Positions 58,732-59,159 of a stretch of 64,000 bases of DNA are shown piece by piece. Position 1 is the first letter of the stretch; each line of letters begins with the position of its first letter. The notes below the pieces were generated by a model that saw nothing but the letters and a program-made list of their open reading frames with translations, did no database searches and had not been told where the DNA came from. Source of the DNA: Aquariibacter albus (GTDB lineage Bacteria > Pseudomonadota > Gammaproteobacteria > Burkholderiales > Burkholderiaceae_C); contig NZ_JACIVI010000002.1 in the NCBI RefSeq assembly GCF_014145335.1, forward strand, positions 298,741-362,740, in the 5' to 3' direction. The translations under genes and the position numbers were made by a program.

Positions 58732-59028
58732 TCAGTTCGCGCTGGGGGCGGGCCCGGGTGTGACGGGCTGCTCGGTCTCGGCCGGTGCGCACAGCACGCG
58801 GAACTTGTGCCAGAGCTGCTCCCGGCTCTCGACATGGGCCGGGTTCACCGGAATGCAGGCCACCGGGCACAGGGCCACGCACTGCGGCTCGTCGAAGTGG
58901 CCGACGCATTCGGTGCAGCGCTTCGGGTCGATCACATAGACCTCGGGGCCCATGGAGATCGCCTGGTTCGGGCACTCGGGCTCGCAGACGTCGCAGTTGA
59001 TGCACTCGTCCGTGATCATCAAAGCCAT
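58732..59028 (-). CDS. YfhL-type 2[4Fe-4S] ferredoxin
   Basis: Small electron carrier of 98 residues, cytoplasmic. The first cluster motif is [16 protein letters not shown] and the second [21 protein letters not shown], with the longer spacing of the YfhL/Alvin family, which tunes a low-potential cluster. A C-terminal extension ([15 protein letters not shown]) is typical. A strong SD (CAGGAG) precedes ATG 59028. It lies downstream of coaD, as in other betaproteobacteria. The 5' region is duplicated upstream (see repeat). Confidence 0.94.
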
Positions 59029-59159
59029 GTCGAGCTCCTGCGGGGACGGACGAGCCCGCCCTCGGCCTGCAGGCCGAGGGCGCGCGCCGCGGGGCCCGGC
59101 ATGCCGGGCCTGGATCCGCGGCGCGTGTCCGTGATCCTCAGCGCCATGGTCGGGCTCCT
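59008..59159 (-). repeat. Duplicated fdx start region flanking stacked palindromes
   Basis: Direct repeats: 59008-59039 (the true fdx SD, ATG and first codons) and 59127-59159. They agree at 28 of 32 aligned bases plus one gap. The second copy encodes MALRITDT against MALMITDE and opens a 42-codon frame (59147-59019) that ends inside the fdx start region. Between them lie a perfect 26-bp palindrome (59057-59082) and an 18-bp palindrome (59093-59110). The latter is framed by 10-bp arms 59083-59092/59116-59125. It could be a relic of a tandem fdx copy, a small palindromic element, or an RNA-processing or termination structure. Confidence 0.75.

Follow-up and report, generated by a model that had tools for sequence, protein, structure and literature searches.

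A putative mobile two-hairpin element at the ferredoxin start of Aquariibacter albus and at dispersed sites in the Burkholderiales

Results

A duplicated ferredoxin start surrounds two hairpins

The window analysed here, a 64,000-nucleotide stretch of the Aquariibacter albus genome, carries on its minus strand a coaD reading frame (59159-59668; CTP_transf_like, Pfam PF01467, E = 2.4e-25; stop TGA at 59159-59161) and, downstream of it, fdx, which encodes a 98-aa 4Fe-4S dicluster ferredoxin (58732-59028; PF12838, E = 3.7e-7). The original prediction had singled out the spacer between the two genes, and its description of the letters held: the SD, ATG and first seven codons of fdx are present twice on the minus strand, with 28 of 32 bases identical plus one gap. 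The functional copy, X-right (AGGAGCTCGACATGGCTTTGATGATCACGGAC), lies at 59008-59039 and ends at a junction between 59008 and 59007; the displaced copy, X-left (AGGAGCCCGACCATGGCGCTGAGGATCACGGAC), is a 33-bp match to it at 59127-59159, and its first base is, as claimed, the last base of the coaD TGA. The roughly 32 bp from the coaD stop to fdx codon 7 are thus present, by their letters, on either side of what we describe as an inserted element, whose body occupies 59046-59126 of the minus strand and is delimited by a match to our covariance model R1 (59046-59132, 78.6 bits, of which 59127-59132 is target).

Read in the direction of the genes, the body consists of hairpin P2 (59083-59125, with a 5-nt one-sided bulge; found in the single fold, the alignment fold, the pair counts and the letters), hairpin P3 (59057-59082; single fold, pair counts and letters) and a tail, GCTCGTCCGT (59046-59055), recognised by its pairing with both target copies; a 6-nt spacer, CCCCGC (59040-59045), separates the tail from X-right. 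Both palindromes lie exactly where they had been placed, P3 being a perfect one of 26 bp and P2 including one of 18 bp at 59093-59110. Shuffling bore out their excess: palindromes of at least 18 bp arose in 4 of 2000 dinucleotide shuffles of the 152-bp region, and palindromes of at least 22 bp in 0 of 2000. Elsewhere in the window there is just one perfect palindrome of at least 20 bp, the second longest overall: it measures 24 bp and lies at 4484-4507 (CGGCGGCCTCGGCCGAGGCCGCCG).

The predicted 42-aa ORF is also present in the ORF list (59019-59147, minus strand), opening at the displaced ATG and closing with a TGA at position +7 relative to the fdx ATG; we refer to it as the relay ORF. The window tail pairs with fdx (59004-59013) at 10 of 10 positions (9 Watson-Crick, 1 G-U), and its last 6 nt are complementary to 59127-59132 of the displaced copy. 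An RNA fold of 58995-59160 was predicted at -92.9 kcal/mol (z = -3.58; 0 of 200 shuffles equally stable). The tail pairs with the upstream copy in the minimum-energy fold and with the fdx start in the centroid fold, where this downstream pairing encloses the fdx ribosome-binding site and start; the two folds are predicted to be near-isoenergetic.

The ferredoxin locus in related genomes

We sought fdx in 60 related genomes, 59 of which gave a match, and took 30 loci. coaD lay directly upstream in 18 of these 30, at gaps of -1 to 130 bp, and 14 of the 18 had plain spacers of -1 to 54 bp, including the sole genome of the same genus (G001), in which the coaD TGA is followed by 13 bp and the fdx ATG. 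The other four, the window genome and three further genera, had spacers of 121-130 bp with the two-copy architecture, and in those three genera the element sits at the same fdx codon. The comparison of relatives that the prediction had named as a possible refutation did not refute it: long-spacer relatives carry the same two copies.

The prediction had offered two readings of the spacer, a relic of a tandem fdx copy deleted through the palindromes, or a palindromic element flanked by direct repeats, with a relay ORF possibly leading into fdx. The presence of an fdx start in the first copy is what the relic would leave. Nevertheless, G001 and 13 others speak against it with short spacers that hold no second copy, as do the displaced copy, which stops at the element junction in the loci read, and the finding, described below, of an identical architecture with the same two-hairpin body at unrelated genes. 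We therefore hold the deleted tandem copy to be extremely improbable, whereas the palindromic element and the relay ORF both gained support.

A tandem two-fdx-start pattern matched in 6 of 399 genomes of the family, and a looser two-start pattern found 25 stretches in a named genome collection, some from the same genomes as in the family set (Oxalicibacterium, Paucimonas, Herminiimonas, an Oxalobacteraceae bacterium, Pelomonas, Roseateles, Inhella, Methylibium, Rhizobacter, Aquincola, Rubrivivax, Burkholderiales and one record titled only Proteobacteria). As the looser pattern required TGGCNYT in the first copy, conservation of the displaced start among these hits is partly a matter of their selection; L140, L147 and L148, although found without that demand, keep the displaced start too. 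We also considered codon-level constraint on the displaced copy (52 synonymous and 7 non-synonymous codon differences over 37 adjacent pairs) and do not count it as evidence, because most second codon positions were dictated by the pattern and the count takes in changes of the real gene as well. Among 26 fdx loci, the window included, seven held tandem arrays of two to four units (L066, L068, L069, L073, L078, L087 and L088); P2 is missing from the upstream unit of L078, and L069 and L087 each begin with a shortened unit.

Copies at other genes and in dispersed repeats

The original prediction had proposed a whole-genome search for the palindrome as a dispersed repeat, and within the window genome this came out negative: queries with the spacer and the palindrome returned weak DNA matches only and no second copy. 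Used as a DNA query in 11 genomes, the L045 fdx element recovered the fdx copies from its own genus and from two others, and no convincing non-fdx copy; covariance models alone detect those. R1, a covariance model of the fdx units, matched in 24 of 399 genomes across the order at E<=0.01, of which 17 reached E<=1e-4 (the weaker order-wide matches may be chance), and in 13 of 399 genomes of the family at E<=1e-4. In the loci read, 11 of these 13 have the element at fdx, a share biased by the training of R1 on fdx copies.

Beyond fdx, copies lie in antisense orientation at 3' gene ends, namely those of ilvC (L092 and L093, from two families), icd (L145, L162), dctM (L154) and a NUDIX gene (L151), and at the 5' ends of thiD (L157), an alpha/beta hydrolase gene (L158, L159), a LytTR response regulator gene (L101) and a nucleotidyltransferase gene (L253); gene identities rest on one locus per gene by Pfam, that of thiD on its G247 homologue L174. 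The element also sits in intergenic repeats, and in genus g164 fdx was matched at two further junctions (L146, L153). The letters thus make the window spacer one copy of a two-hairpin element that is dispersed over many sites; this copy is lodged between fdx codons 7 and 8, and its tail is complementary to sequence on both sides of the insertion point. They also point to a family of roughly 80-bp elements in the Burkholderiales, each with two hairpins followed by a target-complementary tail.

Copy numbers counted with a second model, R2, at E<=0.001 ranged widely: 1 in the window genome (G000), 0 in G001, 1 each in G022 and G031, 3 each in G042 and G493, 6 in G545, 19 in G006, 43 in G164, 59 in G247 and 78 in G535. 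G164 and G247 are two genomes of one genus, which differs from that of the window. Another dispersed repeat houses many of their copies, whose tails track local variants of the target and whose target copies measure ~14-19 bp, whereas the G535 and G006 targets read were CCCTCTCCC...GGGAGAGGG-type repeats with a very short duplication or none visible.

Several features of these landing sites were recorded separately. In G164 and G247 (L218-L257) the element often lands in a second dispersed repeat, made up of a core, GGCTTTCCGCTTGTCTGGTGCGG, and then a hairpin, TTCAGCCATTTTGGCCTGAA; it occupies this repeat at two alternative positions. Many copies in L098, L127-L135 and L264-L273 (G535) and in L259-L260 (G006) lie beside or inside repeats of the type CCCTCTCCC...GGGAGAGGG(C/T)TGGGGGTGAGGG, and there the tail, GCGCACT or GCGCCCT, covaries with the flanking AGTGAGGG or AGGGAGGG. 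Three non-fdx loci of G164 (L219, L221, which overlaps L155, and L229) are tandem arrays of three or four units with a period of mostly 95 bp. In L094 and L105, near 1501-1565, a P2-P3 copy lies within an apparent IS21-type istA frame, which we take to be such from its motif, so the element may also enter insertion sequences.

A covarying three-way junction and a tail complementary to its target

For 29 non-redundant fdx units (alignment A1; 7 of 36 units were omitted as near-duplicates or partial), the predicted fold is a three-way junction in which P1, formed by the last bases of the first target copy paired with the tail, joins P2, with its one-sided 5-nt bulge, and P3. Two-sided changes occur in 20 of 27 pairs, 94.4% of cells pair (vs. 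76.4% in shuffles), and 0 of 500 shuffles reached the observed covariation on any of five measures. In two alignments fitted to models trained on fdx copies, P1 showed two-sided changes in five of five pairs with 90.8% of cells paired (the mixed alignment A3) and 82.1% of cells paired (A4; 72 copies, 69 distinct, some shared with A3). The sequence of the hairpin arms is not conserved; arms differ among copies within one genome yet remain complementary. G-U (G-T) outnumbered A-C mispairs in P2 and P3 by 24:3 in A1 and, in the model-fitted alignments, by 32:11 (A4) and 14:0 (A3). A search of 4227 Rfam families gave no match at E<=1 for four fdx loci, nor at E<=5 for 58500-59700 of the window, and 13 other loci gave five matches, all under the gathering scores and none over the element.

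Across 26 final units, the 10-nt tail and fdx codons 6-9 form 233 Watson-Crick and 6 G-U pairs, with 21 mismatches, out of 260. In 11 units the first six tail positions pair differently with the two target copies, and in 10 of these the better fit is to the downstream copy (the exception, with a better upstream fit, being L086).

These properties would also suit a cis-regulatory, riboswitch-like RNA of fdx, in which the junction serves as an aptamer, the tail toggles between P1 and a hairpin at the fdx start, and tandem units sharpen the response. The near-isoenergetic alternatives for tail pairing in the minimum-energy and centroid folds, the strong covariation, the excess of G-U over A-C in the fdx units, the tandem arrays, the retention at fdx in many genera and the single copy per genome in G000, G022 and G031 all fit such an RNA. 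However, the same body is also found in intergenic repeats and, in antisense orientation, at the 3' edges of ilvC, icd and dctM, places from which a start cannot be controlled, and neither conserved hairpin arms nor an Rfam match was found. We abandoned the riboswitch as the whole answer once the antisense gene-end copies appeared, and now consider it improbable as such, though a role of this kind may be a later use of the fdx copies.

Target duplications and empty sites

Direct repeats flanking the element exceeded permuted flanks at 12 of 33 loci (own score >4 s.d. over the row mean), two of which are the fdx insertions of another genus (L146, L153). Six of the 12 share one model position, the junction, as the end of their repeat, and in three (L103, L115 and L164) the repeats are pieces of local repeats and not clean target copies; a long direct repeat was absent at the remaining 21 of 33 loci. 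Flank-repeat scores of at least 13 were reached by 28 of 72 copies, vs. 10.6% of mismatched flank pairs, most of the 72 being without a long repeat, and by eye the copies of G535, G545 and G006 have a very short duplication or none. Where gene-edge loci were read, P2 faces the displaced fragment, and the tail faces the intact gene.

Tails were matched to their own junctions in ten elements (window, L146 and L153 included) with a score of 84.0, which 0 of 20000 permutations reached (permuted mean 49.7, maximum 74.5). The tail of L153 matched its left junction and not its right (4.0; mean of the others 5.2), those of L146 and L154 gave weak matches as scored, and no tail match was seen for L096 and L101.

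Occupied and empty sites could be paired between the two g164 genomes. Compared with the empty L170, L154 carries an 87-bp insert between two 47-bp target copies, identical at 45 of 47 bases; L253 has a 99-bp insert with a 44-bp duplication (empty L289), L218 a 77-bp insert with a 19-bp duplication (empty L294) and L156 a 93-bp insert with merely a short repeat (L172). Both members were occupied in L239/L291 and L145/L171, and L151/L169, L157/L174, L223/L290, L243/L293, L222/L292 and L244/L295 offered no clean empty site (rearranged, diverged, or holding another element). Together with the dozens of copies in other genomes, these pairs lend support to the original suggestion of a palindromic element between direct repeats, and the letters themselves show both insertion and duplication of the target. 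The last base of the stop codon is where the 47-bp copy begins, and no more than 2 bp separate the beginning of the 44-bp copy from the start codon; that copies reach the gene edge can be explained by selection for an intact gene, but their stopping there is not obviously explained in this way. The two L253 copies of the nucleotidyltransferase start are identical at 34 of 44 bases, with 9 of the 10 differences at third codon positions; unlike the near-identical copies of L154, they would reflect an old event or a foreign gene end.

We also weighed whether mobility is needed at all, since template switching during replication could make and keep the hairpins, with the direct copies arising as local tandem duplications. 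Switching can keep palindromes perfect, so two-sided changes are expected from it too; the arm differences within genomes, with complementarity retained, are in keeping with it, and an inverted junction copy is the trace that a fold-back switch would presumably leave. On the other hand, the same bulged P2 body occurs at dozens of loci in several families, clean empty sites exist, and homogenisation should leave G-T and A-C errors in equal measure, which the mispair ratios given above for all three alignments go against. We accordingly rate an origin without mobility as a poor prospect, somewhat below the riboswitch.

The relay frame ends at the restored start

In 31 of 31 final fdx units, a set that includes the near-duplicate pairs L070/L082 and L077/L084 and the other-junction insertions L146 and L153, the stop of the relay ORF falls within -18 to +10 relative to the fdx ATG (7 units at +10, the other 24 from -18 to +7), whereas the other two frames have 0 and 3 stops within -20 to +9. 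This conservation supports the suggestion that the 42-codon frame leads into fdx. A stop near +7 is inherent in the fdx start whenever the distance is 2 mod 3, and the information therefore lies in the lengths: final units combine 87-bp bodies with loops of 26, 29, 32 or 35, and 88-bp bodies with loops of 28, 31 or 34, the exception being L089 with 36. Upstream units of arrays are less regular, with 4 of 10 being 1 mod 3, and two of those relay ORFs overrun the next start. At six non-fdx 5'-edge loci, picked by eye and representing four genes, the relay stop lies at +1 (an ATGA overlap, five loci) or +5 in all six, although the downstream frame of L096 has just 32 codons and the contig of L157 ends after 30.

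Discussion

We consider it likely, with good confidence, that the coaD-fdx spacer of A. albus holds a small two-hairpin element that is mobile, duplicates the edge of its target on inserting and carries a tail complementary to that target; at 5' edges it would be tolerated through stop-start coupling, and at fdx it forms a relay ORF and has been kept. On insertion, the flanking target edge would be duplicated and a tail complementary to the target would be either written or required; the tail could then pair with the end of the interrupted copy, closing the three-way junction, or with the restored downstream copy. The gene would survive through its restoration by the duplicate. That G-U exceeds A-C suggests an intermediate in which the element's (minus) strand is single-stranded. 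At fdx, ribosomes would start at the old start codon, traverse both hairpins as a short relay ORF and terminate on the new fdx start, where they could reinitiate, and translation of the relay would unfold a hairpin otherwise able to cover that start. As the element has been kept and tandemly repeated at fdx, it may now set fdx output.

We looked for a candidate agent among known enzyme families. PF01797 (Y1) had no match at E<=0.001 in G164 (43 copies), G247 (59) or G545 (6); G535 and G006 have one Y1 gene each, neither adjoining an element, and none of the 13 Y1 loci (roughly 3 kb each) found in the other 8 genomes contained an R2 match. PF00078 (RVT_1) had no match at E<=0.001 in G164, G247, G006 or G000, and one each in G535 (78 copies) and G545. 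Given that the copy-rich G164 and G247 hold neither, neither should be needed in the present host, and the mover may be a host enzyme, or come from a plasmid or from a source since lost.

Genomes with REP/RAYT systems encode a Y1 transposase (RAYT/TnpA-REP), usually flanked by repeats. Like REPs and REPINs, the element is a short, GC-rich, non-coding hairpin sequence in tens of dispersed copies, often intergenic; unlike them, it has two different hairpins in fixed order, target duplications of up to 47 bp and a target-complementary tail. We rejected membership of the REP/RAYT systems and of the retroelements, Y1 and RVT_1 having no match in G164 and G247. An unpaired GTAG or CGTC at one hairpin foot is described for REP/RAYT in one account (PMC3733652). 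In the alignments we read, without a count, the foot of our element is target-derived and depends on the locus, and in the fdx copies CGTC belongs to the tail and faces the fdx sequence GACG.

MITEs such as Correia/NEMIS, ERIC and RUP are described as non-coding, under 200 bp, flanked by a target duplication and readable as ORFs (PMC2229807). Our element shares all four traits, but it lacks terminal inverted repeats of its own, and half of its closing helix is host target. DDE elements usually duplicate a few bp of target, as against 19-47 bp here. A MITE of a DDE transposon, which would have terminal inverted repeats of its own and a short target duplication of fixed length, was therefore set aside, the closing pairs changing with the target (in the model-fitted alignment A3 and, directly, in the comparison of tails with junctions) and the duplications being 47, 44 and 19 bp.

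Group I and II introns carry an internal guide (IGS; EBS/IBS) complementary across the insertion junction, as the tail is here; the element, however, is ~80 bp, has no Rfam match, and leaves its gene restored by duplication and not by splicing. Islands in tRNA genes likewise restore the gene edge on one side and leave a displaced fragment on the other, whereas the element is far smaller and encodes no integrase. An open-access literature search found no description of the two-hairpin element; the 'Burkholderiales-1' motif of Weinberg 2010 appears there as a table entry without an Rfam accession (PMC2864571).

More tentatively, and with well under even confidence, we propose a target-guided mobile element that needs no Y1 or RVT_1 of its host, that recognises or copies ~10 nt across the insertion point through its tail, duplicates the gene edge so as to leave the gene intact and, at 5' edges, leaves a translational relay; some of its copies, those at fdx for instance, would since have turned into control elements that are retained and multiplied.

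Small palindromic repeats abound in bacterial genomes, and the element bears on how those that lack a transposase could spread. Since its copies at gene edges bear a record of the target in their tails and a duplication that is still legible, the course of insertion can be deduced from sequence. The element also shows a harmless route for insertion within a gene, through a duplicated edge and a stop-start overlap that would hand over the ribosomes.
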